In this document: one piece after another, positions 5,885 to 63,238 of the stretch | How the letters are laid out: every line of letters begins with the position of its first letter | How positions within the stretch are numbered: the stretch's first letter is position 1 | DNA from: an uncultured Bacteroidota bacterium | Lineage (GTDB): Bacteria > Bacteroidota > Bacteroidia > Flavobacteriales_D > Sanyastnellaceae | DNA length: 64,000 nucleotides | Direction of reading: 5' to 3' | Assembly: GCA_903932685.1 (NCBI GenBank) | Contig: CAIZGX010000064.1 | Location: 1-64,000, forward strand | Position numbers and translations under genes: made by a program | Notes under the pieces: model-generated | What the model saw: only the letters and a program-made list of their open reading frames with translations | Databases searched by the model: none | What the model was told of the DNA's origin: nothing

Positions 5885-6066
5885 AACGATTAATTTAGAT
5901 TAAGGTGCGACTAAGCTATGAAAAAAATCATTCGGATTTATAACAAAAATCATTTGAGTTAGAAAAACAAAAAAATTAACCCATTCTTTAAAGTATCGTT
6001 TCAAAAAAGAGACCGAAGCCTCTCTTAATTCCTAAACAAACTAAACTTAAACTAATTGTATTTACA

Positions 6067-6130
6067 AGGTCTACGAAGGTGCTTTGCAAGGACGCTTCGC
6101 GTAGCGACCTTCCAACGGACCCTTCAAAGA
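6067..6130. repeat. Mini-palindrome array, AGG/CCT separator
   Basis: Small odd palindromes TCTACGA, TGCTTTGCA and ACGCTTCGCGT are each preceded by AGG. After a switch, TCCAACGGA and TCAAAGA are each preceded by CCT or CCCT. It ends 2 nt before the pgk stop codon. The rest of 5885-6066 shows nothing I can name. Confidence 0.6.
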
Positions 6131-6132
6131 AT

Positions 6133-7323
6133 CTACACCGTAATCGCAGCAACCCCCGGCAACTCAATGCCTTCAAGAGATTCCAACATAGCACCGCCGC
6201 CGGTGCTCACGTAAGAGACTTCGTTGGCTAAGCCAAACTGATTAATAGCGGCTACAGAATCGCCGCCGCCAACAAGTGTGAACGATCCGTTCTTGGTGGC
6301 TTCAACCAAGGCGTTCGCAACGGCTATTGTACCGGCTGCAAAGGCCTCCATTTCAAACACACCCATAGGGCCATTCCACAAAACTGTTTTCGATTGTGCT
6401 ATGATAGAAGCGAAATGCTCCCTCGACTTCACTCCAATATCCAATCCCATCCAACCCGCTGGAATACTCGCTATGCTGCACTCCTTGTGATTCGCATCGG
6501 CCGCAAAGGCATCCGCAATAATCGCGTCGGTAGGCAAATACAAATTCACATTCTTGTTGCGCGCCATTTCCATCAACTCCAACGCCAAGGCCAGCTTGTC
6601 GTCTTCCACCAATGAACTTCCCACCTTTCCCTTCTGCGCTTTAATAAACGTAAACGCCATGCCTCCACCAATAATGATGTTGTCTACAGCGTTCATTAAA
6701 TTTTCCAAAATAGCAATCTTGCTGCTGACTTTACTTCCACCGATAATGGCGGTAACCGGAGAAGCATTGCCGTTCAATACGCGGTCAATACTCTTCACTT
6801 CGTCTTCCATTAAATAACCGAAATATTTATCTGTTGGAAAGAACTTCGCAATGACAGCCGTTGAAGCGTGCGCGCGGTGGGCTGTTCCGAATGCATCGTT
6901 CACATAGACATCTCCCAATTCTGCCAATTGACCGGCGAAGAATTCATCTCCGCCTTCTTCTTCTTTATAGAATCGTAAGTTTTCCAACAACAGAATTTCT
7001 CCTGCTTTCATTTTCTCCACTGCATGCTTCGCTTCTTCACCGACACAATTGCCAGCAAAAGCAACCGGCTTTCCCAAAACTTTTGAAACTTCTTGTTGAA
7101 TGTGCTTCAACGAAAATTTATCTTCTGGTCCGCCTTTCGGCCTTCCTAAATGTGACATCAAGATCACCTTCGCTCCGTCTGAAGACAACCTCAAAATGGT
7201 TTTCGCTGCTGCACGAATACGCGTATTATCTGTTACTTCGAACTTATCGTTCAAAGGAACATTGAAGTCCACGCGAACAAGCACCGCTTTGTTCGCAAAG
7301 GTGTGTTGATCAAGTTGATACAT
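6133..7323 (-). CDS. pgk: Phosphoglycerate kinase
   Basis: A 396-aa cytosolic glycolytic enzyme that transfers the acyl phosphate of 1,3-bisphosphoglycerate to ADP. Visible family marks are VRVDFNVPL near the N-terminus, the substrate-binding SHLGRPKG at about residue 58, the nucleotide-binding GGSKVSSK at about 195, and the C-terminal VGGGDSVAA and [13 protein letters not shown]. Length is normal for bacterial Pgk. The start MYQLDQHTF lies 2 nt after the efp stop, so the two genes are probably cotranscribed. Confidence 0.97.
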
Positions 7324-46520: not shown

Positions 46521-50499
<3,979 letters not shown>

Positions 50500-50502
50500 A
50501 TA

Positions 50503-51078
50503 CTAACGCACTTCTTCGAATACTTCGTTTACACTTTCTTCGAGTGCATTCAATTCGTTGAGTACTTCATTGAGTGAATCAGCAGGAACGGGTTGGGAAG
50601 ATCCTTTCCAAGAAGACACAACAGCTTTCACTTTATGAATAGCATCTTGGATGCGTGCTTTTGCTAATTTCCATTTATTCGTCTTAGCATCTGAATCACC
50701 CGAGTGGATATTCATTTCGTAGCGTTCAGCGGCGTTGAGCAAGCAAACGCGCAGGTCGTTTTCGTTCCAAGGTTTTGCAACGTAGCGATAAACTTGTCCA
50801 CGATTGATTGCGTCTATCACGGCCTCTATATCGGCGTATCCCGTTACTAAGATTCTCACGGCGTCAGGAAAGTCGTTGAGTGTAAGTTCAAAGAATTCTA
50901 CACCACTGAGCTCAGGCATTTTCTGGTCGGAAAGAATAATGGGAACTTCATTCGCGTTCAGATAAGCCACAGCTTCCTGAGGAGAAGTGGTTGTGAATAC
51001 ATCGAATTCTCTGCGGAATAGCGCTTTGAAAGCGATAAGGTTATTTTCTTCGTCGTCGAGGTAAAGTACTTTTATCAT
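50503..51078 (-). CDS. Response regulator with canonical receiver domain
   Basis: A 191-aa protein. The receiver domain (about 1-120) has the acid pair D8-D9 (LYLDDEENN), the phospho-acceptor D51 (ILSDQKMP), T79 (LVTGYAD) and K102 (VAKPWN), so it looks phosphorylatable. After it comes a helical tail of about 70 residues with no recognised DNA-binding or enzymatic domain. It follows the histidine kinase gene after 15 nt and is its probable partner. It is similar to the degenerate receiver at 56662-57153. Confidence 0.9.
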   Translation of the reverse strand: MIKVLYLDDEENNLIAFKALFRREFDVFTTTSPQEAVAYLNANEVPIILSDQKMPELSGVEFFELTLNDFPDAVRILVTGYADIEAVIDAINRGQVYRYVAKPWNENDLRVCLLNAAERYEMNIHSGDSDAKTNKWKLAKARIQDAIHKVKAVVSSWKGSSQPVPADSLNEVLNELNALEESVNEVFEEVR

Positions 51079-51093
51079 AAACCTAATTGGATC

Positions 51094-53175
51094 TTAGTTA
51101 GCGACTGGTAAAGTTATAAGAAAAGTGGTCCCGTCGGTAGCGCTACTTGTGAACGAAAGATGACCGTTGTGTTCACCGACGATTCCAGCTGCAATTCCTA
51201 GACCAAGTCCAGTTCCTTCTCCCACGTCTTTTGTTGTGAAAAAAGGCTCGAATATTTTGTCTTGGATTTCTGTTGGAATTCCCTTTCCGTTGTCTTGAAT
51301 TTCAACGCAAATTTTATTATCGTTGAAGTAAGAGCGTACGTTTATTATTCGGTCAATCGGTTGTCTATTCGGAAGGCGTGTGGCTTGAACTGCGTTAGTC
51401 ACGAGATTCATGAAGACTTGCGAAAGTTTTCCTGGGTAGCAATATGTTTTCGGAATATTTTCTCCCAATTCCACATTGAGTGTTACCTCTGCCTTGGTCA
51501 TGTTTTTCATAACCACGAGTGTCGAGTTCAGGCATTCGTTGATGTCTGCTAAGATGAGTTCACTTCTGTCCATTCGTGAGAATACACGAAGTCCTTTTAC
51601 TATTTCGGCGGTGCGTTTCGAACCATCTTCAATACCGTTCAAGAGTTGTTGAATTTCTTTTTTGAGATACTCTACATCTAGTTTTACGTATTGACTTTTC
51701 AGGTGATTTATCTGTTCAAGGAGGTCTTTGTTTTCATCTATTTCCGCAAGCTGCGAGAGCAGTTCTAGAATTTCATCGATGTCTCGTTTCAGGGGTCCCA
51801 CATTCGATTGAACGAAGTTGATGGGATTGTTTATTTCGTGTGCGATACCTGCCGTCATTTGTCCGATTGACGCCAATTTTTCCGACTCAACCAGTTGTTG
51901 TTGTGTCATGCGTAGATTGTTCATGGCGGTATGCAGTTCGGTGTTTCTGTTTTCGAGATCTGCGGTTCTTTCGTGCACTTTTTTCTCGAGTTGAACATTC
52001 TGTTCTGTCACGAGTCTTTCATTTTCCTTCATGGCAACGAAGGCTTGTTGTTGTGAAAGTTCTTTTTCTTGTTTCAGCACATTAATTCGATCTGCCAGTG
52101 CAAACGACAGCAGCAGAATTTCCACCACCGAACCCACGGGTAATGCGAAGTTTGTGAAGGCGTTGAAGGGGAGGATGCCGAAATTTCTTAATGCATATAA
52201 TGTGAGGCCAATAATAAAAATTACCCAAGCAGTTATAAAGTACCTCGCAGGTTTATAGCCTTGCTTAATCGCTTTGACTGAAGCGAAAATCAAAATCAAA
52301 GCTGATAATGCCCCTGCATTTAATATTATTTGAGTGGTATTATGAAATCCGAAAAATGCTAATACAATTGCGATTAAGTAAAGGAGCTTGAAAAAGTTTA
52401 GTATACTGTTAATTCTTGGGGCATATTGAGCTGTTTTGATAAAATTCTGCGCGAAGAAAATTGTCGCCAATCCACTTAAGCCAGGGACTATTGAACCCAG
52501 TAAAATATTTATACTTCCTGAAAAATTGAAAATATATTTCGAGGAAAATCCAAACAAAACAAGCTGTGTATATCCAACAGTGAAAATGTAAAAAATGTAA
52601 AGTAAGTAAACAGAATCCCTCACAGAAAAAAACACAAAAAGATTGTAAATGAACATAGAAAGTATCATTCCTAAATAAATAGCAAAAATCAAATCTATGT
52701 TTTCGTAATCATTTAATAATTCTTTTGACTCTTGAATGCTCAGTGGAATAAGTAACTGATCCGAACTCCTCACTTTTAAATAAAAATCTACAATATTATC
52801 ATTTGACTTCTCAATATTAACGGCGTTACCGGAAATATTATACTCTCTTAAAAACAATGGTATTTTCTCTCCAGAACTTCTCTGGTAAACAGTATCAGAA
52901 GTCACCTGAAAAACTTCGACGTCGTCTATTATTGGATTTGCAACATGCAATACTTTCTGGTTATTCCAAAAAGCACTATCAACATTGAACTTCCAATGAA
53001 TAACATAAGTTCCACTTTTCAATCCTAAATTTACAATTGTTCCATTAACATTGTTGAATTTTCCAATTTTCCAATTTTCCAAACTAGAGTTTTCAGGAAA
53101 TTCAGCATAGCCTATTTGTGATAAACTATCAGCAGAAATAGAAACTAAAAAAAATAACAAAAGTAAATATCTCAT
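51094..53175 (-). CDS. Hybrid 7TMR-DISM sensor histidine kinase
   Basis: A 693-aa membrane kinase. The signal peptide is followed by a 7TMR-DISM extracellular domain (about 25-155), seven transmembrane segments (about 163-370), a coiled-coil linker (about 378-420), then the dimerisation and catalytic domains. The H-box reads ASIGQMTAGIAHEINNPINF (about residue 445). The ATPase boxes are VFMNLVTNAVQ (N), DNGKGIP (G1), FEPFFTT (F) and GEGTGLGLGIAAGIV (G2). DISM domains are thought to bind carbohydrates or small molecules. It overlaps the acyltransferase-like gene by 4 nt (ATGA). Confidence 0.92.
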   Translation of the reverse strand: MRYLLLLFFLVSISADSLSQIGYAEFPENSSLENWKIGKFNNVNGTIVNLGLKSGTYVIHWKFNVDSAFWNNQKVLHVANPIIDDVEVFQVTSDTVYQRSSGEKIPLFLREYNISGNAVNIEKSNDNIVDFYLKVRSSDQLLIPLSIQESKELLNDYENIDLIFAIYLGMILSMFIYNLFVFFSVRDSVYLLYIFYIFTVGYTQLVLFGFSSKYIFNFSGSINILLGSIVPGLSGLATIFFAQNFIKTAQYAPRINSILNFFKLLYLIAIVLAFFGFHNTTQIILNAGALSALILIFASVKAIKQGYKPARYFITAWVIFIIGLTLYALRNFGILPFNAFTNFALPVGSVVEILLLSFALADRINVLKQEKELSQQQAFVAMKENERLVTEQNVQLEKKVHERTADLENRNTELHTAMNNLRMTQQQLVESEKLASIGQMTAGIAHEINNPINFVQSNVGPLKRDIDEILELLSQLAEIDENKDLLEQINHLKSQYVKLDVEYLKKEIQQLLNGIEDGSKRTAEIVKGLRVFSRMDRSELILADINECLNSTLVVMKNMTKAEVTLNVELGENIPKTYCYPGKLSQVFMNLVTNAVQATRLPNRQPIDRIINVRSYFNDNKICVEIQDNGKGIPTEIQDKIFEPFFTTKDVGEGTGLGLGIAAGIVGEHNGHLSFTSSATDGTTFLITLPVAN

Positions 53176-53888
53176 TTTTCGATTTGATAATGTATAGTCG
53201 TCAGTCCATCTCCAATAATTTCATCTATTTTCAATATAGGGTTCAATCTAATTTCATTAATTTTCAGTCTTTCAATTTCATCTGAATCTGTCATTTCTAA
53301 AATATTGGGCTGATGTGTAATGTGTGCATATTGATTAGCACCAGCGTAAAAAATCTTTCCTCCTTCCCCCAATGATTCAACGAGCCGGAAACCGTATTTA
53401 TGTGAAATCCTATATGTAAAAGCCGAGCAAAGAGCAATCATCTCACTATAACCCAACAAGCCTCCAAGAGCAATTGCACTCCTGATGCTGTATACACTAC
53501 CGATTCCCAACCCAGCGACTGCAACCGAATTCCATAAACCGCACAATTCTGCTACAGGTCCTTTTCGGCTTTTCAAATATTCATTGAGATTAGGCACATC
53601 CTCACCAACAGCGCTTTGAATTGGAAGCTCCAATTTCGAACCTAACAATTGTAACCTTGAGCCGCCATATGTAATTTTCCTGTCGATTGATTCAATAATT
53701 ATTACGTGGGTACCTGGGTCAAACATCCATTCCTCGGTGGAACTTGTCAACTTAAAACCAAAAGCTTCTAAAACTCCCAAATGTCCTTCTCTAAATCGTA
53801 TACAACTTTCCAGATCGTCCACCGCCCTGAAACTTCTAATTGAAATTTCACTCAAGTGCTTTTCTGGAGAGTTGATGTTATAGCCCAT
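53172..53888 (-). CDS. GNAT-fold acyltransferase, LuxI/FeeM-like
   Basis: A 238-aa protein. It has an acyltransferase-like layout: SIRSFRAVDDLESCIRFREGHLG, then DPGTHVIIIES and YGGSRLQ, a conserved GPVAELCGLWNSVAVAGLGIG block, and LCSAFTYRISHKYGFRLVESLG. This resembles GNAT/autoinducer-synthase folds such as N-acyl amino acid synthases, but I cannot tell substrate or whether it is catalytic. It overlaps the ThiF-like gene by 11 nt and the kinase gene by 4 nt, an unusually tight coupling, so it probably works in the same pathway. Confidence 0.65.
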   Translation of the reverse strand: MGYNINSPEKHLSEISIRSFRAVDDLESCIRFREGHLGVLEAFGFKLTSSTEEWMFDPGTHVIIIESIDRKITYGGSRLQLLGSKLELPIQSAVGEDVPNLNEYLKSRKGPVAELCGLWNSVAVAGLGIGSVYSIRSAIALGGLLGYSEMIALCSAFTYRISHKYGFRLVESLGEGGKIFYAGANQYAHITHQPNILEMTDSDEIERLKINEIRLNPILKIDEIIGDGLTTIHYQIEK

Positions 53889-54906
53889 GAACTCCCAGTT
53901 TCTGTTGCAAATCCATAAAATACCTACCTGAAGGAATTTTATTTCCTAGTAAAATGTTCCTTGCCGCTATAGTAACTGTCGCCCCCCCGTGAAAGACATC
54001 ACTAGCCAATTGGGGCCAAGTATCAATAGACTTTCCTATCTCTAGCATAGATTCAACGCCACGCTTGGAGGCTTCGGATAAATCTATAAACCTCATTAAA
54101 ACAGCACTAGAATTCTCAAGCATTAAACTCTCAATTTCTGACTCGTCAATTTTTCCATGAAATATTGGCTCCGAATCATTTTGATAGTTCTCTACATCAA
54201 GCAAACCTCTATCACTAGTTTCCATCAATAACGGAATTCTTTGCTTTCTCGCCATTACCCGCAAGAGCAACTTAATGTTTCCACTATCACATTCGTCAAC
54301 AACTAAATCTAGATTAGCATTACCCATGAAAAAATCTTCGACATTATTTGAATTTACTCCTTCTTCAAAAACCTGTATATTCAAATATGGATCAATCTCC
54401 AGAGCCCAACGCTTTGCGATTACAACTTTCGATAATCCAATATCACACAGTCTGAATGGTAACCTATTTAAATTTGACATTGACAGAGTGTCAAAGTCAG
54501 CAATTTTATAATTCTCAGCCACTCTCTCCATTATCATTGTGAGAAAAACCGAAAATCCAACAGACATACCAACCACACCTATTGTTTTACTGGATAATCT
54601 CTCTTGCTCATCCTTTGTAATTTTATTTCTATTGCGAGAGGTCCTTAATTCTACAAATTCCGCCTTCTCTAAAATTTTCAAAGCTCTGTTATTCCAAGGA
54701 AAGTATACCCAATTGCCATATTCCGGATTTGCAGAAATAAAACTCTTCGCTTCATCAATACCATTTGTCTTCTTAAGACTTCTGATACAATACAGTTCTT
54801 CTAGTTGGCCTTCCAACAAATCAATCTCTTGTAAGTCCGGGTATAGAATTTTAATCGATTGAATTTCATTCGATTGAGTTTTGAGCGAAAAAAGCTTTAT
54901 GTCCAA
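53878..54906 (-). CDS. ThiF/E1-like adenylyltransferase, MoeY-like
   Basis: A 342-aa protein. It starts with TTG at 54906 because no ATG lies in frame before the conserved domain. After a unique N-terminal part (about 1-105), an E1-like Rossmann domain follows: IGVVGMSVGFS (nucleotide loop), IADFDTLSMSNLNRLPF (Asp and Asn/Arg for ATP), then VVDECDSGNIKLLLRVMARK. This pattern matches the ThiF half of Rv1355c/MoeY-like proteins, which in others carry a nitroreductase domain after it; here the protein ends early and a GNAT gene follows. It probably adenylates a carboxyl group of an unknown acceptor. Confidence 0.75.
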   Translation of the reverse strand: MDIKLFSLKTQSNEIQSIKILYPDLQEIDLLEGQLEELYCIRSLKKTNGIDEAKSFISANPEYGNWVYFPWNNRALKILEKAEFVELRTSRNRNKITKDEQERLSSKTIGVVGMSVGFSVFLTMIMERVAENYKIADFDTLSMSNLNRLPFRLCDIGLSKVVIAKRWALEIDPYLNIQVFEEGVNSNNVEDFFMGNANLDLVVDECDSGNIKLLLRVMARKQRIPLLMETSDRGLLDVENYQNDSEPIFHGKIDESEIESLMLENSSAVLMRFIDLSEASKRGVESMLEIGKSIDTWPQLASDVFHGGATVTIAARNILLGNKIPSGRYFMDLQQKLGVHGL

Positions 54907-54968
54907 AGTAAATAATATTACCGCAAGAAAATCAAATTATTGCAGTCAATAACTTAGATTTATGGCTT

Positions 54969-54980
54969 GTTGTGCACAAC
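54969..54980. promoter_or_regulatory. Perfect 12-bp palindrome in the divergent promoter region
   Basis: GTTGTGCACAAC reads the same on both strands. It lies in the 89-nt gap between the ThiF operon and the 54996 gene, 16 nt before the latter's ATG. It is a candidate operator for a dimeric regulator. Confidence 0.4.
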
Positions 54981-54995
54981 TCAAAGTTTATTTTA

Positions 54996-56099
54996 ATGCC
55001 TAAACCAAACAAAAAATCCACTTCGACAATTTCATTTCCAACTTGGAAAGAAATCATTCATTCATTTATTGACGAAAACTCAAAAAAAGAAAGTTTCAAA
55101 TTAAGTGAATTCAAAAGTAAAATAGAATTCTTTCAGTCGAATGCAAGGGTTATTACAGATGACATGGCGAATAAGAGCGTCTCACTTGCAATGCAGATGA
55201 TGATTGGAGCAGCTGGTGAATATGTTCCCGGCGAAACACTTGACAGTATTATTCCCAGAATTAAAGAAGCGGGGTTTTCAAGTAATGAGTTTTATACCGT
55301 ATTTGACTTGCTCAATTCTAATTATTGTATCAAGGATGAAACGATAAATGAAAAACTTGGTATAAAGCCAGAAAATTTCGAACTATATCATCTTTTAGGA
55401 ATCTCCGGACATCCCTTTAAAGTCCACGAAGAAGACCTTCCTCATTTTATTCGATGGGCTGGTGTTGCTTTTCTACTATTCTCTCTTCCAGGTTTTACTT
55501 TCCAATCAAATAAAGATCATTTTATAATAAAATTCAGAGTGAATGTATCCTCCTCTGAAATTCCAGAAATAGCAGAACTCAGATATGTCACTCTTGAGAA
55601 AAAATGTTTTCTGAGCAATGATAGCGTCGGTAACAACGAATTCATTCCGAGATATCACTTTGACAGATGGTCAATAATTCCAAGTAATGAAGATCTCTTC
55701 GTTAAACCTCAATTCGTTTCTGACTTTCAACAAAGTACATTTATGAATGGTCTGAACTATCTCTTCAATGCATCATTACTCAATTTTCCTATCAAATATC
55801 TATTAATGCTAGAAGAAAGAATTCTTCAAGATAGGAACAAGGGGATCTCTAATGAAATTAACAGAAATATTTCCGAGCATGCCGGAATAGAATCTTCTTT
55901 CGACGAATATCAAATCGGAGATTACATGGCAAAAACTATTCGGCCTAAGCTTACCGAATTAGTCCAAAAATGGGACTCCTCACATTCTTCAAAAAGTATT
56001 GAAAACGATAACCAAGCAATCCACCAAGCGCAAAAGCTAGGTCTGCTGCCGATACCTGAGAAAATTAAGACGCTGATCTATTCGAGGGTGGGAGAGTAA
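54996..56099 (+). CDS. Unrecognised 367-aa protein of the signalling island
   Basis: The start MPKPNKKSTSTISFPTWKEI at 54996 is the first ATG; a GTG at 54972 lies within the palindrome. The protein is soluble, with a helical N-terminal part, a middle section that may be PAS-like (DLPHFIRWAGVAFLLFSLPGFTF, KFRVNVSS, RYVTLEKKCFL, PRYHFDRWSII) and a helical C-terminus. I recall similar segments in the N-terminal parts of some Bacteroidota regulators, but no DNA-binding domain follows. It is divergent from the ThiF operon and upstream of an XRE gene. Base use is AT-rich. Confidence 0.6.
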   Translation: MPKPNKKSTSTISFPTWKEIIHSFIDENSKKESFKLSEFKSKIEFFQSNARVITDDMANKSVSLAMQMMIGAAGEYVPGETLDSIIPRIKEAGFSSNEFYTVFDLLNSNYCIKDETINEKLGIKPENFELYHLLGISGHPFKVHEEDLPHFIRWAGVAFLLFSLPGFTFQSNKDHFIIKFRVNVSSSEIPEIAELRYVTLEKKCFLSNDSVGNNEFIPRYHFDRWSIIPSNEDLFVKPQFVSDFQQSTFMNGLNYLFNASLLNFPIKYLLMLEERILQDRNKGISNEINRNISEHAGIESSFDEYQIGDYMAKTIRPKLTELVQKWDSSHSSKSIENDNQAIHQAQKLGLLPIPEKIKTLIYSRVGE

Positions 56100-56101
56100 T
56101 C

Positions 56102-56162
56102 TTTTCGAAAATTTCGAAAAACAATTTTAATGGAGTTTTGAATCCTGAGTTTTGGGAAAACT
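56102..56162. promoter_or_regulatory. Inverted repeats in the XRE gene leader
   Basis: TTTTCGAAAATTTCGAAAA (56102-56120) is nearly self-complementary, and AGTTTTGGGAAAACT (56148-56162) is a palindrome with a 3-nt centre. Either could be an operator for the XRE regulator that follows at 56178. Confidence 0.35.
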
Positions 56163-56177
56163 AAAACCAAATCTCCT

Positions 56178-56639
56178 ATGAAAGCTGTTTTCAGAAACTC
56201 AAACTACCCTAAGCTTAAACAACTAAGAATGCTCTACTCTTTCAAACAAGAGTACATCGCAGATCAACTGGGAATCTCACAGTCGGAATACAGCCGTCTC
56301 GAAAACGGACAACGACACGTTAAAATCGATGACTTCAAAAAACTAGCGCAACTCTATCGCGTTACTCCAGCACTACTTATGGTGTCGGAAGCATACGCCC
56401 ATGTCGATGTAGAAAAAATTAAAGCCGAAGTCGTTGAAGAGACAAACGCCATTACAAAACGCATGATGGAAGAGAATGCTATTCTTCAATCCAGACTTGA
56501 TGAAGCGATACATACTACCCAAACCCTGCTCAAAGCTATAGCGGAACTTCAAAATAAAAAGCCCCGAATCACCCATGATTCCTACAATTCTAAAAATAGT
56601 TCCCGAAAAACGAAACCTAAAAAAAACATTGAGCGTTAA
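56178..56639 (+). CDS. XRE-family helix-turn-helix protein
   Basis: A 153-aa regulator. The helix-turn-helix (about 13-67) reads LKQLRMLYSFKQEYIADQLGISQSEYSRLENGQ, a standard Cro/C1 fold. It is followed by a coiled coil (about 78-125) and a basic tail. It probably binds DNA as a dimer or multimer. It lies 78 nt after the unknown gene and 22 nt before the receiver gene. Confidence 0.9.
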   Translation: MKAVFRNSNYPKLKQLRMLYSFKQEYIADQLGISQSEYSRLENGQRHVKIDDFKKLAQLYRVTPALLMVSEAYAHVDVEKIKAEVVEETNAITKRMMEENAILQSRLDEAIHTTQTLLKAIAELQNKKPRITHDSYNSKNSSRKTKPKKNIER

Positions 56640-56661
56640 ACAGAGACGAAATACTTCAACT

Positions 56662-57153
56662 ATGAAACATTCAAACACTCCCACCAATACAACCAGCTCA
56701 ATGGTAAATGTTCTTTGCTTAGATAACGACGCGATGGTACTTCATTCCTTCAAATCACTTTTCGGTAACGATTACAATGTGTTCACTGCAACTGATCCAT
56801 TCGATGCATATAACATTATGCAGTCAGAAAACATACACGTTGTCCTTTCCAATTTAGAAATGCCAAGTATGTCAGGAACAAACTTCCTTCAACGTATGGC
56901 ACAAGAATTTCCAAAAGCTCAACGCATTTTGCTTGCAGGTAATATAACCGCTGAAGCCATGTTAAGTGCCATCAATCAAGCTCGCGTATTTCGCGTAATC
57001 ACTAAGCCCTTCAACAAGGAAGAAATGAACGAAACGCTGCAATCTGCTTTCAAAAACTATCAGGAAATGGCAGATAAAGAAAATTCAATCAAGCGTCTTG
57101 AAAAACAAAACGCGCAATTCGAGTTTTTACTACGTCAACAAATGCTGTCGTAA
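56662..57153 (+). CDS. Degenerate receiver-domain protein (pseudo-receiver)
   Basis: A 163-aa protein; ATG codons at 56575 and 56701 are alternative starts. The receiver fold is clear and resembles the 50503 protein, but key residues differ. The acid pair is D21-N22-D23 (LCLDNDAM), the phospho-acceptor position is N64 (VLSNLEMP), and the Thr/Ser switch is A92 (LLAGNIT). Lys115 (ITKPFN) is kept. It cannot be phosphorylated in the usual way and probably works by protein binding. A coiled coil (about 130-160) ends the protein. No output domain is present. Confidence 0.88.
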   Translation: MKHSNTPTNTTSSMVNVLCLDNDAMVLHSFKSLFGNDYNVFTATDPFDAYNIMQSENIHVVLSNLEMPSMSGTNFLQRMAQEFPKAQRILLAGNITAEAMLSAINQARVFRVITKPFNKEEMNETLQSAFKNYQEMADKENSIKRLEKQNAQFEFLLRQQMLS

Positions 57154-57177
57154 CCTCTACAAATTCAATATAAAAAG

Positions 57178-57198
57178 AAGGGCCACATGGCCCTTTTT
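57178..57198. terminator. Bidirectional terminator
   Basis: AAGGGCC and GGCCCTT form a 7-bp stem around ACAT, with five T after it on the plus strand and a T-rich stretch on the minus strand. It separates the pseudo-receiver gene and the minus-strand TIGR02757 gene. Confidence 0.8.
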
Positions 57199-57974
57199 CA
57201 TTTTTCAAATCCTGCTTCCGACAAACCAAACAACGCGAAGTCATACTTCACCGGATCTTCAGAATCGTATAAACGAAGATTGAAATCCAATTCTTCAACC
57301 GCTTTCCAATCCGATTGGGAGCGCAACAATAACCCAAACATACGCGCTGTTCTTCCCGAATGGACGTCGAGAGGAATGGACAATTGCGAAGAACTTATTC
57401 CATTCCATAATCCGAAGTCTACTCCTCGATTATCGCTACGTACCATCCACCGCAAAAACATGTTGATGCGCTTTGCCGTGCTATTCCTTTCCGGACTAGC
57501 AATGTGCTTCAAGGCCCGGTGCGATTCACTTCCAACAAAAATGTTTCTAAAATATTCTATGCCTTCCCTCGACCCGCCAAGAGAAAATCCCTTGGTGAAA
57601 AGCGTTTCCATTCCACCTTCTTCAACATAAATTCTTCGTAACGACTTTACGAAAAATTCAACATCTTCCTTCATGAACGTTCGATGAATAGAGGGCTTCC
57701 AACTTTTGAAGTCTTTCGGCTGCGCATTCAAAACAAAATCAAAAGGCGTCTGATCCATGTATTCCATGAGTCGATTCGCGCTAATTAAAATAGATTTCCG
57801 ATTGCCCCAACTGATTGTGGCCGTTAGAAACGCAGCAATTTCAATGTCTTCTTTTCGAGTGAATGAATGCGGAATACTTATCGGATCTTCTTCAATGAAA
57901 GAACGTCGGTTGTATTTATCTACCGAACGTTCGAGCGCCTCGCGCAATTCTTCACTTGCCTCCGGTGAATACAT
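57198..57974 (-). CDS. TIGR02757 family protein
   Basis: A 258-aa protein. The start MYSPEASEELREALERSVDKYN at 57974 is preferred, since longer versions read back through the DUF4159 gene. Conserved pieces include EEDPISIPHSFTRKEDIEIAAFLTATISWGNRKSI and RMNMFLRWMVRSDNRGVDFGLW-like segments (KRINMFLRWMVRSDNRGVD), matching TIGR02757 (DUF2400). The function is unknown; the fold may relate to helix-hairpin-helix DNA glycosylases. It overlaps the DUF4159 gene by 23 nt. Confidence 0.85.
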   Translation of the reverse strand: MYSPEASEELREALERSVDKYNRRSFIEEDPISIPHSFTRKEDIEIAAFLTATISWGNRKSILISANRLMEYMDQTPFDFVLNAQPKDFKSWKPSIHRTFMKEDVEFFVKSLRRIYVEEGGMETLFTKGFSLGGSREGIEYFRNIFVGSESHRALKHIASPERNSTAKRINMFLRWMVRSDNRGVDFGLWNGISSSQLSIPLDVHSGRTARMFGLLLRSQSDWKAVEELDFNLRLYDSEDPVKYDFALFGLSEAGFEK

Positions 57975-58617
57975 ACTGCAAGAGATTCGCTCCCATTTGT
58001 AAGGCCTTGGTGCGCGCAGCTTCCGAGTCTTTATGGACATTCGAGTCTTCCCAGCCATCGCCCAAGTCACATTCGAAATCGTAGAACACAACCAAACGAT
58101 TTTCTATGAAAATCCCCAAGCCTTGCGGCGCCTTATTGTCGTGCTCGTGTATCTTCGGTAAGCCTGAATTGAACTCGTATTTCTGATGATAAATCGGATG
58201 ACCGAAAGGAATCTCCAAAAATTCAGCATCTGGAAAAACTTTCTTCATCTCTCTTCGAATGAATTTGTCTAATCCATAATTATCTGAAATGTGCAGGAAA
58301 CCACCACTTAGCAGATACAGTCGAAGATTTTCAACGTCGGCGCTCGAAAAAACAACATTGCCGTGTCCTGTCATGTGCACAAACGGATAGTTGAACAATT
58401 CCGCACTTCCCACTTCCACATAAGGTGTTTCTTTAGCCACGCTCATCTTCAATTCGCGATTCACAAATGAAACCAAATTGAGCAGGCTAGTAGGATTCGC
58501 GTAATAGTCCCCGCCCCCTTTGTATTTCAAAACAGCAATCTGATACGATTGTCCGATTGCCGCATTGGCAAGGACATTCAAACAGAAAATAAAAATAATT
58601 TTTCTTAAAAATTTCAT
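57952..58617 (-). CDS. DUF4159 domain protein, exported
   Basis: A 221-aa protein. The signal peptide is MKFLRKIIFIFCLNVLANAAIGQ. The mature part carries YKGGGDYYANPTSL, then FVHMTGHGNVVFSSADVENLRLYLLSGGFLHISDNYG and the IPFGHPIYHQKYEFNSGLP block, as in DUF4159 proteins. The fold is thought to be related to class I glutamine amidotransferases, but I see no obvious catalytic Cys. It is encoded between pabA/trpG and TIGR02757, a common Bacteroidota neighbourhood. Confidence 0.85.
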   Translation of the reverse strand: MKFLRKIIFIFCLNVLANAAIGQSYQIAVLKYKGGGDYYANPTSLLNLVSFVNRELKMSVAKETPYVEVGSAELFNYPFVHMTGHGNVVFSSADVENLRLYLLSGGFLHISDNYGLDKFIRREMKKVFPDAEFLEIPFGHPIYHQKYEFNSGLPKIHEHDNKAPQGLGIFIENRLVVFYDFECDLGDGWEDSNVHKDSEAARTKALQMGANLLQYVFTGGK

Positions 58618-58620
58618 ACT

Positions 58621-59202
58621 CTAAATTGAATAAATCCAGTTTTTCATCATGTGCATTCCTTCTTTCGTCAATACCGATTCTGGATGAAACTGAACAGCCA
58701 TTAAAGGTAATACTTTGTGTTGAATAGACATTACCAATCCGCTGGAATTCCTCGATGTTATTTCGAAGGAAGAAGGAAGAAATTCATTGTCTATAACCCA
58801 GCTGTGGTAATGTCCCACTTGAAAATGATTGGGTAATCCTGTAAACAAAATAGACTCACCCACTTTTTGAACCTCTGAAGAAACACCGTGAAGAACGTGA
58901 TCAAGGTTCTTTAATTTCCCTCCGTCGTGAAGTGCCATAGCTTGACACCCCAAGCAAATTCCTAACATGGGAATTCGTTCCCAAAACGTGGCAATGAACT
59001 TCATTAGATCTCCGGATTCTTCGGGCAATCCAGGGCCTGGAGAAAGCACAGCCGCATCGTAATTCAACACCTCTTCCCATGGAATCTCATTGTTTCGAAC
59101 CACACGAACCGTTGTGTTTAAGGCCTCGCAATAATGCACGAGATTGTACGTGAACGAATCGAAGTTATCTATGAATAGTATGTTCTTATTTGTGTGTTCC
59201 AC
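58621..59202 (-). CDS. pabA: Anthranilate/aminodeoxychorismate synthase glutamine amidotransferase
   Basis: A 193-aa class I glutamine amidotransferase subunit. The nucleophile is Cys in MLGICLGCQAMAL (about residue 80). The His-Glu pair is in QFHPESVLT near the C-terminus. The N-terminal ILFIDNFDSFTYNLVHYCEAL is diagnostic. It supplies ammonia for folate or tryptophan synthesis; with no trpE or pabB nearby, which role it has is unclear, and trpG is an equally fair name. Confidence 0.92.
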   Translation of the reverse strand: MEHTNKNILFIDNFDSFTYNLVHYCEALNTTVRVVRNNEIPWEEVLNYDAAVLSPGPGLPEESGDLMKFIATFWERIPMLGICLGCQAMALHDGGKLKNLDHVLHGVSSEVQKVGESILFTGLPNHFQVGHYHSWVIDNEFLPSSFEITSRNSSGLVMSIQHKVLPLMAVQFHPESVLTKEGMHMMKNWIYSI

Positions 59203-59242
59203 CTTTTATGTCGAAGTTTGAAAAAACTACGCAACATTACGA

Positions 59243-59623
59243 ATGAAAACCGCAATTGAATCAAAAAAAGTACCTGCACCCATTGGTCCATACAGCCAAG
59301 CTGTTGTTGCAAATGGTATGGTCTATACAAGCGGACAAATTGCCATTGATCCATATACAGGCGAGTACACACCTGCAGACATTCAAGCAGAAACAGAACT
59401 CGTCATGAAAAATTTAGAAGCGTTACTTGAGGCCTCTGGCGCAGATTTCAGCTCTGTAGTGAAGACAAGTATCTTCTTGCAAAGCATGTCAGACTTTGCC
59501 GAAGTAAATGCGGTATATGCGAAGTATATGTCGGCTCCATTTCCAGCCAGAGAAACCGTGGAAGTAGCTAAACTTCCGAAGAGTGCCAAGGTTGAAATTA
59601 GTATGATCTCAATTGTAAAATAA
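59243..59623 (+). CDS. ridA: RidA-family enamine/imine deaminase
   Basis: A 126-aa trimeric enzyme of the Rid/YjgF family that removes reactive enamines made by PLP enzymes. Seen are the N-terminal APIGPYSQAVVANGMVYTSGQIAIDP, the catalytic Arg in PFPARETVEVAKLP, and the C-terminal VEISMISIV. Length is standard. Divergent from pabA by 40 nt. Confidence 0.95.
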   Translation: MKTAIESKKVPAPIGPYSQAVVANGMVYTSGQIAIDPYTGEYTPADIQAETELVMKNLEALLEASGADFSSVVKTSIFLQSMSDFAEVNAVYAKYMSAPFPARETVEVAKLPKSAKVEISMISIVK

Positions 59624-59781
59624 TGATACTTAAAAAAATTCTTCACTACCTGAACCCTTCGAATCTTTTCAAAAAAGAGCAAGGCGACATTAACCTACGC
59701 ATGATGCATGGGATTAATAAAATTTCTATTCTTGTTTTTGTGGTTGCGCTAACCGTATTGGTTATTCGTTGGATGAAGTAA
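59623..59781 (+). CDS. Small membrane protein, DUF6728-like
   Basis: A 52-aa frame whose ATG overlaps the ridA stop (TAATG). It reads MILKKILHYLNPSNLFKK, then NLRMMHGINKISIL and one membrane helix (about 33-48). The RMMHGINKISI segment resembles small Bacteroidota DUF6728 proteins as I remember them. The stop abuts the convergent gldD stop. Coding is likely from the overlap and sensible sequence. Confidence 0.65.
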   Translation: MILKKILHYLNPSNLFKKEQGDINLRMMHGINKISILVFVVALTVLVIRWMK

Positions 59782-60384
59782 TTACTTCCAGCGCATGGTT
59801 TCAATCATGTGCACCACATCTTCACGCATAAAATTCAAGCATGGCGCGAGTGAATCGGCATTGGGCTTGTTGCGGAAATAAAGGACTCCACGCATGAAGT
59901 GGTTCAAACTGTCGGTAACAAAAAACTGCAGCTGTGATGCAGCTTCTCCCTCTAAATCGTAGATGATTCCATACATCTTGGTAGAATCTATTCGCACCTG
60001 CGTTCTGCGAATGGCTGTGGCTTTTACCTCGTGCATTAAGGTGAAATCATACGCCTTCGAAATGTGCTTTTCCAAATCGTTGTTTACGGGAAAGTAAGAG
60101 CAATAAACGGTGGCATGAAGACGCGGAATAAACATGTTGAACCAACAACCCATATTGCCCTCCTCCGAAGGAACATTTTCAATTTTCGCGTAGTTAGGAA
60201 CCTCGAAAGAAACTGGACACTGGCTATCGTACTGGGTGTATTTTTTTTCTGGAAAATCTATTCGGAAGTATGATTTTTTCCTTGGAACCGGAATACCTTC
60301 TGACATGAAGAAATAGTACAAACCACCTGCCGCTATCAAAACAGATAACGATAAAATAATCAAGCGTCTGTATCTCTTAAGCAT
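59782..60384 (-). CDS. gldD: Gliding motility protein GldD
   Basis: A 200-aa protein. The start MLKRYRRLIILSLSVLIAAGG at 60384 is chosen because it gives an 8-nt overlap with gldE. The mature part carries PRKKSYFRIDFPEKKY, CWFNMFIPRLHATVYCSYFP and FFVTDSLNHFMRGVLYF, all GldD-like. Usual GldD proteins are lipoproteins, but I see no lipobox Cys after the hydrophobic segment, so here it may stay anchored by its membrane helix. GldD is needed for gliding and type IX secretion in Flavobacterium. Confidence 0.9.
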   Translation of the reverse strand: MLKRYRRLIILSLSVLIAAGGLYYFFMSEGIPVPRKKSYFRIDFPEKKYTQYDSQCPVSFEVPNYAKIENVPSEEGNMGCWFNMFIPRLHATVYCSYFPVNNDLEKHISKAYDFTLMHEVKATAIRRTQVRIDSTKMYGIIYDLEGEAASQLQFFVTDSLNHFMRGVLYFRNKPNADSLAPCLNFMREDVVHMIETMRWK

Positions 60385-61681
60385 AGCGTTTCGCTTTAAC
60401 GCGACTAATTTTTCTGTTGTCTGCTGATTCAATTGTGAATTCAAAACTGCCAAACTGCCAAGTCTCACCTCGCTTCGGAATTCTTCCCATTTGCTCGACA
60501 ATGAATCCGCCTAGCGTCGTGCTGTCCCCGCGTGAAGCTTCGAAATCGTCGCCATCCATATCGTAAACACGGTACATATCAATCAACGGTATTTTCGCTA
60601 CAAACAGAATGTTTTTCTCATCGAGTTGCGACCATAAAATTTCACTTTGATCATCGAACTCATCCTTCACCTCGCCTACTATTTCTTGAAGTATATCTTG
60701 AAGAGTTACAATACCTGACGTTCCTCCATATTCATCTGCCACAATAGCCATATGCATTTTGTCGCGTTGAAACTCGGTTAACAAATCATCTACTTGCTTA
60801 CTTTCCGGAACGAAGAACGCCTTGCGCTGCAAGCTCTCCCAATTGAATTCTTCTTTGTCTATATGGGGAAGTAAATCCTTCGCATACAAGACTCCAGTCA
60901 CTGAATCGAGCTTTTCATTCGCCACAACAAATCGCGAGTATCCAGAAGATTCCACACGTTGAATAACGGTCTTGAACGACTCTCCTAAAAACAAGCAAAC
61001 TATATCTACACGTGGCGTCATAATCTGCACCACTTCGTTATCACCAAAGGTTACAATGCCTTCTAAAATCCGATGTTCTTCTTCGGAACGATTGTCATCG
61101 GAGGTCAACTCTAACGCATGTCCAAGCTCATCTACCGAAATGTTTCCGCCTTGCTGATTTTGATCGCTTTCAAACCACTTTCCTGCGGTAGTTAACACCC
61201 ATATCACAGGAGAAAATACTTTGTCTAGTACAACGAACAGAAACGCAAAACGCTTCGCTAGCTTTATGTTATTCGCTGTTGCGTATACCTTAGGAATAAC
61301 CTCTCCGAACAAGACAATAATTGTAGTTACTCCTACAACATTAATTAATCCAACAACCCAAGGCTCAAGCGCTGTTCCTTCAAACCACATGTCGAACAAA
61401 ATCGTAGACACGAGTACCACCGCTATGTTCACCATGTTGTTGCCTATTAGCACCGAGGCTAACAATCGCTTCGTCGCGATTTCTGGAGTTGGATGTTCGA
61501 GCAGGCGAATAACATTTTTAGATTGACTGTCCGTCGCGTTTTCAAGGTCTTTCCGCTGAACTGGAGAAAGCGAAAAAATAGCCACTTCCGAGCTCGACAT
61601 AATTGCACTACAAGACAAAAGCAACAGCACGAGCAACAAAGGGCCCGCGCTGTTTAACAAGATCACACTATTGAATTCCAT
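60377..61681 (-). CDS. gldE: GldE, CNNM/CorC-family membrane protein
   Basis: A 434-aa protein with an N-terminal CNNM domain (about 1-190, four membrane segments, STILFDMWFEGTALEPWVVGLINVVGV), two CBS domains (about 205-340, VQIMTPRVDIVCLF; DKMHMAIVADEYGGTSGIVTLQDILQEIVGEV) and a C-terminal CorC/HlyC domain. The position upstream of gldD and downstream of ssb identifies it as GldE. It may transport or sense divalent cations; its role in gliding is genetic, not biochemical. Confidence 0.93.
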   Translation of the reverse strand: MEFNSVILLNSAGPLLLVLLLLSCSAIMSSSEVAIFSLSPVQRKDLENATDSQSKNVIRLLEHPTPEIATKRLLASVLIGNNMVNIAVVLVSTILFDMWFEGTALEPWVVGLINVVGVTTIIVLFGEVIPKVYATANNIKLAKRFAFLFVVLDKVFSPVIWVLTTAGKWFESDQNQQGGNISVDELGHALELTSDDNRSEEEHRILEGIVTFGDNEVVQIMTPRVDIVCLFLGESFKTVIQRVESSGYSRFVVANEKLDSVTGVLYAKDLLPHIDKEEFNWESLQRKAFFVPESKQVDDLLTEFQRDKMHMAIVADEYGGTSGIVTLQDILQEIVGEVKDEFDDQSEILWSQLDEKNILFVAKIPLIDMYRVYDMDGDDFEASRGDSTTLGGFIVEQMGRIPKRGETWQFGSFEFTIESADNRKISRVKAKRYA

Positions 61682-61735
61682 TCTTTACATTACCAATATG
61701 TTTGTAAAGGTAGCGAAAGAAAAAAAACGGGAAGA

Positions 61736-62128
61736 TCAGAATTCAGTTTCTTCCACCATTTCGGTGTTAGTAGGAACTGATTCTTCCTTCTTGGTGTTGC
61801 TGAGGAGTTGAACATCTTCGGCAAACACTTCCAAAACGGTACGGTCGTCGCCGGTCTTCGATTTATAGGAACGAGAGCGCAGCTTTCCTTCCACGTAAAC
61901 CAACATACCCTTTTTCAAGTACTGTTCGGTAAATGTTAAACTCGACGTTCTTCGCACAACAATGTTGTGCCACTCCGTCTGTTCTTGTCTTTCTCCTTTG
62001 GCGTCCTTCCAAATCTCTTTGGTTGCCATGGAGAAGTTCGCAAGTTTGCCTCCGTTGTCGAAGGTCTTGACTTCTGGGTTTCTACCCAGGTGACCCACTA
62101 GGATCACTTTGTTGATGGTGTTTGACAT
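61736..62128 (-). CDS. ssb: Single-stranded DNA-binding protein
   Basis: A 130-aa OB-fold protein. The start is MSNTINKVILVGHLGRNPEVK, with the WHNIVVRRTSS and GKLRSRSYKSKTGDDRTVLEVFAEDVQLL segments. The C-terminus ends MVEETEF, a short acidic tip that recruits partners. It lies between gldE and mutY, as in other Flavobacteriia. Confidence 0.95.
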   Translation of the reverse strand: MSNTINKVILVGHLGRNPEVKTFDNGGKLANFSMATKEIWKDAKGERQEQTEWHNIVVRRTSSLTFTEQYLKKGMLVYVEGKLRSRSYKSKTGDDRTVLEVFAEDVQLLSNTKKEESVPTNTEMVEETEF

Positions 62129-62200
62129 AAAAATAAATTTTAGTTATGGCCCAAAACTATTTCAGTCAAACACCCTCGAAAAGCAATGCTTATGCGGTTT

Positions 62201-63238
62201 TCATATATGAATCTCTTTAACGTACTTCATAAGCAACGCTGAAATACCTGTTTTCAAAAGCTCTTCAGTGTTTTTTGTTGAAGGGAATTCGTCGGGCATA
62301 TTTCGACATAAGCAACTGAAAAATTGCGCTGAAATCTTTCGGTGACTGAGCACGTGTGTGTAAATACTGTCTTTCTTCCATGTGACATTTTGGGTGGAAG
62401 GGAAGCGTTTTTGGAATTCGAGAAGCACTTCTTCTTCGCTCAAAGGAACCTTCGATTCAACAAAAGGAAAATCGTAAAGGCCAGCCCAAACGCCCGATTC
62501 CGGTCGTTTCTTCACTATATAACCTGAAGGCATTTCTATTGCCGCGTAGTACAAAAACAACGGCTCTACTTTCGTTTTAGAAGCCTTAACTGGAAAGTTT
62601 GAAACGGTTTGTGCGCTCCGGGCCGCGCAGTTCTGGGCAAGCGGACATTCGGAACACTTCGGATTCTTCGGCGTGCAGACCGTGGCGCCCAGTTCCATCA
62701 TGGCCTGATTGAAGTCGGCTGGGGCGTGAGCAGGAATCCATTCATTTAGCAACAATTGAAACGTCTTTCTCGTGGTACCCTTGTCAATGGGAAGATCAGA
62801 CGCTAAAAAGCGAGTGATCACGCGGAAAACGTTTCCATCTAAAACAGCAACGCGTTCGTTAAAGGCGAACGAAGCAATTGCCGCAGCGGTATAAGGACCA
62901 ATGCCTTTCAATTCAAGAAGTGAAGTATAGGTTGAAGGGAAATTTCCCAATTCTTCAATTTTTTTTGCTGTCGCGTGCAAATTTCTTCCACGACTGTAAT
63001 AGCCCAATCCTTGCCACAGCGAAAGCACCTCATCTTGGTCTGCATTGGCCAAATCGTTTACGGTAGGATAATGCCCTAAAAGCTTGTGATAGTAAGCCAT
63101 TCCTTGATCTACCCTCGTTTGTTGAAGAATGACTTCCGAGAGCCAAATGGCATAGGGATCGTTCGTGTTTCGCCACGGCAAATCGCGCTTCTCTCTGTTA
63201 TACCACTCCAATAAGGCGGTTGTGTCGCGCGAATTCAT
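62201..63238 (-). CDS. mutY: A/G-specific adenine glycosylase
   Basis: A 345-aa enzyme that removes adenine mispaired with 8-oxoguanine. The start MNSRDTTALLEWYNREKRDLPWR at 63238 is preferred over an upstream ATG at 63307 inside the divergent gene's promoter region. Seen are the helix-hairpin-helix LLELKGIGPYTAAAIASFA with catalytic Asp in VLDGNVFRV, the 4Fe-4S motif C-x6-C-x2-C-x5-C (CTPKNPKCSECPLAQNC), and a C-terminal NUDIX-like domain. Length is normal. Confidence 0.96.
   Translation of the reverse strand: MNSRDTTALLEWYNREKRDLPWRNTNDPYAIWLSEVILQQTRVDQGMAYYHKLLGHYPTVNDLANADQDEVLSLWQGLGYYSRGRNLHATAKKIEELGNFPSTYTSLLELKGIGPYTAAAIASFAFNERVAVLDGNVFRVITRFLASDLPIDKGTTRKTFQLLLNEWIPAHAPADFNQAMMELGATVCTPKNPKCSECPLAQNCAARSAQTVSNFPVKASKTKVEPLFLYYAAIEMPSGYIVKKRPESGVWAGLYDFPFVESKVPLSEEEVLLEFQKRFPSTQNVTWKKDSIYTHVLSHRKISAQFFSCLCRNMPDEFPSTKNTEELLKTGISALLMKYVKEIHI

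Follow-up and report, generated by a model that had tools for sequence, protein, structure and literature searches.

A four-gene operon of a freshwater Flavobacteriales bacterium that appears to make and sense an oxazolone-type molecule

We analyzed a stretch of 64,000 nucleotides (the window) from a freshwater Flavobacteriales bacterium, in which four overlapping genes appear to make and sense an acylated amino-acid (oxazolone-type) molecule. Overall, our data indicate that these genes probably form a self-contained system of small-molecule signalling whose specificity cassettes are interchangeable, the sensor recognizing the product of its own enzymes. An earlier note on this DNA had proposed a self-contained signalling unit made by the enzymes and the kinase, and, on genomic evidence, the linkage of the genes and the co-exchange of sensor and enzymes support this proposal. 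The four open reading frames were confirmed, all on the minus strand, and they overlap or lie within 15 nt of one another, as the note had stated: the ThiF and GNAT genes overlap by 11 nt and the GNAT and kinase genes by 4 nt, and a gap of 15 nt separates the kinase and receiver genes in the window sequence. The features of the locus are listed below.

54906-53878 (-): ThiF/E1-like cyclase, 342 aa, the first gene of the operon
53888-53172 (-): acyltransferase, GNAT-like (FeeM/LuxI-like predicted fold), 238 aa, no Pfam/NCBIfam match
53175-51094 (-): sensor histidine kinase, 693 aa, from Pfam, H-box and TM predictions
51078-50503 (-): receiver protein, 191 aa, Pfam Response_reg 9.2e-15
52220..53175 (-): codons 1 to ~318 of the kinase gene, the variable sensor part, delimited by an identity drop and a DNA break against the sister species G008
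54972..56099 (+): divergent PAS-like regulator gene 'up375' (375 aa), AF2 pLDDT 85
52220..56013: specificity cassette, with no alignable counterpart in the sister species G008 and with collinear flanks

The first protein has a Pfam ThiF match (4.9e-19) and a much stronger match to NF005901, the Rv1355c family (3.5e-107 over residues 25-337, 359 bits). This match covers the ThiF half alone, in agreement with the earlier description of an E1-like protein of the Rv1355c type without its nitroreductase half, and because that half is missing, the score falls below the full-length equivalog cut-off of 476 bits. Rv1355c is TrzS, which together with the acyltransferase TrzA yields N-acyl tryptazolones; its ThiF domain performs the ATP-dependent cyclization of N-acyl tryptophan, and its flavin domain desaturates (PMC12856293). 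The window ThiF is ~38-41% identical to TrzS-type cyclases, the value for the actinobacterial Rv1355c-family proteins L189 and L190 being ~38%. The ATP-site residues R88/R91, G113, D137, D139, N145, N147, R148, K160 and D207 are invariant across 33 homologues, Patescibacteria included, and are also common to the actinobacterial Rv1355c proteins. D207, in the motif DECD, aligns with EECD of the latter (D202 in L189), the numbering here being that of the window protein and not that of the published TrzS, for which Asp217 is given as the catalytic residue (PMC12856293). Members of the ThiF superfamily mostly adenylate protein C-termini, and the PDB sequence matches of the window protein are such enzymes; it might thus activate a protein or peptide (E1/MoeB/ThiF-like or RiPP-like), the acyltransferase being a separate GNAT that acts on it. 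We regard this as very improbable: Rv1355c/TrzS, which acts on an N-acyl amino acid (PMC12856293), is the best-matching family by a wide margin, and the window ThiF has three Cys, of which not one occupies an invariant column of the family.

The second protein, the GNAT-like one, gave no Pfam or NCBIfam match up to E=1, autoinducer-synthase models included, and no meaningful match was obtained when the protein and its 41-member profile were compared with PDB sequences. A structure was therefore sought by prediction: the AF2 model from 41 aligned sequences (pLDDT 90, pTM 0.89) has FeeM (2g0b) as its nearest PDB structure (Foldseek 1e-7, Z 16.5, 176 residues, 3.0 A), although the two share only 11-14% sequence identity. 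The next structural matches are AHL synthases such as BjaI, EsaI, LasI, TofI and MesI, among other GNATs. The GNAT/LuxI-like character claimed for the second gene is thus borne out at the level of predicted fold, which resembles the N-acyl amino acid synthase FeeM and the LuxI-type AHL synthases. The nearest structures of TyzA, according to its authors, are likewise FeeM and BjaI (PMC10404671). The acyltransferase profile also matched the TrzS neighbour of a Rhodococcus plasmid (L190:5797-6555; hhalign E 1.1e-6, 195 columns), and no match was found to the TrzS neighbours of Streptomyces (L188) and Mycolicibacterium (L189). From the model, we predict that the acyltransferase is an N-acyl amino acid synthase. 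Because of the ThiF family, the FeeM-like fold and the Rhodococcus profile match, both operon enzymes can be assigned, at the level of homology and modelling, to oxazolone-type N-acyl amino acid chemistry.

In the mechanism that we propose, the FeeM-fold acyltransferase, judged by fold and homology, would join an acyl group to an amino acid. By homology to TrzS and TyzB, the ThiF protein would then spend ATP to adenylate the carboxylate of the N-acyl amino acid and close a 5(4H)-oxazolone. The desaturase (nitroreductase half) was sought across the window's genome, which is 96% complete, and was not found; the predicted product would thus be a saturated oxazolone or a hydrolyzed or aminolyzed derivative, and this prediction is uncertain because the genome lacks the desaturase of the characterized oxazolone pathways. 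The cyclized, saturated intermediate is still formed by TrzS when oxygen is low or when its oxidase domain is disabled (PMC12856293), so that a saturated oxazolone is a reasonable putative product. The nitroreductase half is present in 11 of the 114 genomes of the window's family, mostly fused to ThiF, and such fusions occur in genera g2, g3, g8, g9, g11 and g35. Genome G030, unlike the rest of its genus, has a ThiF-nitroreductase fusion and two copies of the PAS-like gene (L105:3693-4829 and 5983-7101) by the operon. On a plasmid of Streptomyces sp. NBC_01431 (L191:5122-8036), a 622-aa ThiF-family protein adjoins a beta-ketoacyl-ACP synthase III and not a GNAT.

The closest characterized systems are similar in their enzymes. 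In TrzAS of Mycobacterium and Rhodococcus (Rv1356c-Rv1355c), a ThiF domain of the same family adjoins an acyltransferase, whereas the window lacks the nitroreductase/flavin oxidase half and its unit includes a kinase and a receiver. The TrzAS loci have c-di-GMP genes nearby and no described receptor; Kleetz et al. noted those around trzAS in M. tuberculosis (PMC12856293), and on the Rhodococcus plasmid pN9T4-1 (L190:4877-6555) a GGDEF-domain gene adjoins the acyltransferase and TrzS. TyzACB of M. tuberculosis and OxzAB of Pseudoalteromonas rubra, both of which make tyrazolones, likewise combine a FeeM/BjaI-like acyltransferase with a ThiF cyclase (PMC10404671); in contrast, the window ThiF has Rv1355c/TrzS as its best family, a desaturase is missing, and a kinase and a receiver are linked. 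FeeM itself is the best structural match of the acyltransferase model, at the low identity given above. We know of no kinase linked to FeeM.

The kinase chain consists of a signal peptide, DISMED2, 7TM, HisKA and HATPase_c, with the H-box at residue 438, and the receiver protein of a receiver domain and a coil of ~70 aa, with no known output domain. Pfam (7TMR-DISMED2, 7TMR-DISM_7TM, HisKA and HATPase_c; Response_reg) confirmed the DISM-domain kinase and receiver that had been read from the sequence. The phospho-acceptor of the receiver is probably Asp51 in DQKMP. The product of the enzymes would reach the extracellular DISMED2 and/or the 7TM part of the co-transcribed kinase, and the kinase would pass the signal to the receiver in a phosphorelay. 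Several genera have the receiver fused to a HisKA and HATPase_c of its own (361 aa; L080:11588-12673, L105:12519-13604 and others), which suggests a phosphorelay.

The divergently encoded 375-aa protein has a central part with a predicted PAS fold (3h9w, Z 9.7, 108 residues, 2.5 A). Its top structural match, 3clo, extends over a longer stretch (Z 10.7), but with an rmsd of 9.8 A and a Foldseek value of 1.7e-3; 3clo, from Bacteroides, is a regulator whose DNA-binding domain is of the LuxR kind. Judging from the model, the protein is probably a PAS-containing regulator with a putative DNA-binding part. It is perhaps a cytoplasmic receptor for the operon's molecule, and may act as a second receptor or as an autoregulator. 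Next to its gene, outside the cassette, lie an XRE-type regulator gene and an overlapping second receiver gene (56178-57153), which are 81-97% identical within the genus and could partner the output-less receiver downstream.

The linkage of the four genes extends well beyond the window. In the window's family, ThiF is found in 99 of 114 genomes and the GNAT in 96 of 114; in an even sample of Bacteroidota, ThiF is found in 11 of 395. Acyltransferase, kinase and receiver lie nearby on the same strand in 88 of the 106 Bacteroidota ThiF loci, and the remaining 18 each meet a contig end within 2.9 kb downstream. The enzymes are thus not unlinked from the kinase in relatives, and the four-gene set is far beyond chance, because it is present in every Bacteroidota relative with a long enough contig. 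Four loci from other families (L142, L143, L147 and L149) have the gene order GNAT-ThiF instead of ThiF-GNAT, yet the genes are still linked, which indicates that the linkage has outlived rearrangement. In genus g1, and in no other, an RND/MMPL-family transporter gene (47965-50499) lies convergent to the operon, and mmpL9 adjoins the tyz cluster of M. tuberculosis. We considered this neighbour as an exporter of the product and rejected it owing to its restriction to that genus; the likeness to mmpL9 is probably a coincidence.

A comparison between the window and the sister species G008 (locus L091) revealed an exchanged block. The DNA of the two is collinear on both sides (85.8% identity over 46541-52220 and 83.8% over 56013-62596), and from 52220 to 56013 it is unalignable except for 105 bases. 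The block comprises nearly all of the PAS-like gene, ThiF, GNAT and kinase residues 1-320. Within it, identity is 41% for ThiF, 28% for GNAT, 41% for the PAS-like 375-aa protein, and mostly 25-45%, with 11% in one block, for kinase residues 1-320. Kinase residues 321-680 are 80-98% identical and the last 13 residues 69%; the receiver is 94% identical, the flanking MMPL and GDH proteins are 95-96% identical, and the flanks of the PAS-like gene have 82-87% DNA identity. By hydropathy, the break within the kinase gene falls around TM6 to TM7, close to the last transmembrane helix. The receiver is 94-95% identical in four members of the genus, the swapped one included.

The distribution of the cassettes does not follow kinship. 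Judged by their flanks (95.4% and 91.7%), G006 and G008 are sisters, but the cassette of G006 is that of the window; G012, whose upstream flank (89.9%) places it closest to the window, has a G008-type cassette, with 77% and 71% identity to G008 for the two cassette genes on its contig. Therefore, cassette and species histories disagree. Where sister species have flanks of 92-95% identity and blocks that cannot be aligned, the kinase core and receiver are still 90-99% identical. A second case was found in genus g5, where loci L078 and L085 have 95% identity in both flanks, 94% in the kinase core and 99% in the receiver domain, and only 35% in ThiF, 31% in GNAT, 27% in the 375-aa protein and 31% in the sensor. 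This exchange is independent of that in the window's genus, and the PAS-like gene belongs to the cassette in both. Mis-assembly was considered as the cause of the break and rejected: no reading frame is disrupted, the G008-type cassette recurs in a separate assembly, that of G012, and the same break is seen in g5.

Across 36 locus pairs with a kinase core identity of at least 85%, sensor and enzymes were all low in 6 (GNAT at most 31%) and all high in 30 (GNAT at least 67%); mixed pairs, in which sensor and enzymes are discordant, were not found among these 36. The 6 low pairs represent two events, so the pattern is clean and the independent cases are few. When every pair among the 60 complete loci was included, GNAT had a partial correlation of 0.14 with the sensor, not above its value of 0.34 with the kinase core. 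In our view, the correlation with the sensor is weak because most pairs are saturated at low identity, and the close-core pairs are the informative ones.

That sensor and enzymes are exchanged together is no proof by itself that they recognize one molecule, because contiguous genes recombine together and homologous recombination would tend to resolve in the conserved kinase core. However, at the agr and ComQXP pherotype loci of Firmicutes, the signal genes and the N-terminal sensor of the receptor vary as one unit, on a kinase core that stays the same. This pheromone-locus pattern is matched in two genera here, in which several highly diverged cassettes share a constant core and end at the sensor/transmitter junction, although the signals of agr and ComQXP are peptides and the window has small-molecule enzymes in a Bacteroidota host. 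The window system shares with quorum-sensing synthase-receptor pairs both a stable linkage and the co-variation of enzymes with the sensor domain. The sequences show that the enzymes, the PAS-like protein and the kinase sensor constitute an exchangeable cassette on a constant kinase core and receiver, an arrangement that is best explained if the sensor recognizes the product of its own enzymes. Enzymes and sensor swapped as one cassette are what would be expected of a private chemical language.

The same exchange would suit rival antibiotics too. Antibiotic clusters also pair synthesis genes with a dedicated kinase, and the enzymes could make an antimicrobial or stress-related N-acyl amino acid or oxazolone, with the kinase as its regulator or self-protection sensor and not as a communication receptor. 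Sub-inhibitory antibiotics induce oxazolones in proteobacteria, a tie to oxidative stress exists for the oxazolones of M. tuberculosis, and N-acyl tyrosines can act as antimicrobials (PMC12856293). Nevertheless, we consider this unlikely, as the conserved unit includes neither an immunity gene nor a transporter, its constant partners are the kinase and receiver only, and the RND/MMPL gene downstream is a neighbour in one genus.

The occurrence of the cyclase in a second phylum also supports signalling by the product of the operon. A TrzS-type cyclase was found in 46 of 380 sampled Patescibacteria genomes, and we examined 46 Patescibacteria loci, namely 40 from that sample and six found first. 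In 39 of these 46, a histidine kinase lies within 4 genes of ThiF on the same strand, two genes downstream in 26. Kinases account for 40 of the 347 genes within 4 positions of the Patescibacteria ThiF and for 0 of the 181 genes farther out in the same loci. In the two kinases scanned, the sensor is HisKA_7TM and differs from that of the window. If the product of the cyclase had nothing to do with the kinase, the pairing of the enzyme with an unrelated multi-TM sensor kinase would be hard to explain. Domains of the DISMED2 type are commonly regarded as binding ligands or carbohydrates that serve as external cues, and a kinase and enzymes in one operon fit simple regulation; the kinase might thus sense an outside cue and control enzymes that modify a membrane lipid or metabolite, without the product being its ligand. 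We assign a small probability to this reading, which gives no reason to expect that, in two genera, the sensor half alone of the kinase should vary along with the enzymes, or that the cyclase should occur beside an unrelated 7TM kinase in another phylum.

Synthase-kinase-receiver layouts are known in principle. In the CqsA/CqsS and LqsA/LqsS quorum-sensing systems, the synthase gene adjoins a multi-TM histidine kinase and a receiver, as in the window; the CqsA and LqsA synthases are unrelated to the ThiF and FeeM-like enzymes, and their signals are alpha-hydroxyketones. The enzymes are known as well, and the new element is the tie between oxazolone-type synthases and a receptor kinase. A literature search on oxazolones with quorum sensing and kinases, on FeeM with kinases and on quorum sensing in Patescibacteria, which left subscription papers mostly uncovered, yielded no earlier account of oxazolone-type synthases tied to a receptor kinase. 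The authors of the TrzAS study regarded the physiological function of oxazolones as a major unresolved question and noted only a resemblance to signalling molecules (PMC12856293). Here, oxazolone-type enzymes are firmly linked to a receptor kinase across a bacterial family, and in a second phylum to a kinase with another sensor, and they are exchanged along with the sensor domain, so the signal hypothesis becomes directly testable with a defined receptor. If it holds, it would add a new class of small molecules to communication in Bacteroidota, where few systems are known.

We give roughly even chances to a broader proposal, in which oxazolone-type N-acyl amino acid derivatives are pheromones and TrzS-type cyclases mark a broad synthase-receptor family, comprising the exchangeable Flavobacteriales cassettes and a parallel Patescibacteria version, with another 7TM kinase, that draws on the metabolism of aromatic or branched amino acids. 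If the pheromone reading is true, it would provide a receptor-based precedent for the mycobacterial oxazolones. The Patescibacteria loci suggest a route of chemical communication in that phylum. A PaaK/LuxE-like ligase lies within 4 genes of the cyclase in 41 of them, a separate nitroreductase or alpha/beta hydrolase often stands between cyclase and kinase, and genes for an aromatic amino acid lyase (PF00221, 5e-155) or for a Leu/Phe-type dehydrogenase are found in addition at some loci. Conserved clusters of PaaK/LuxE-like ligase, TrzS-type ThiF, nitroreductase or alpha/beta hydrolase and multi-TM kinase (L007, L009, L012 and L192-L231), in some cases with the lyase or dehydrogenase gene ahead of them, may represent Patescibacteria signalling systems. 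At a further locus (L008:7947-9911), the ThiF cyclase is fused to an alpha/beta hydrolase and followed by two tandem 7TM histidine kinases, the fusion protein thus combining the maker and a possible breaker of one ring.
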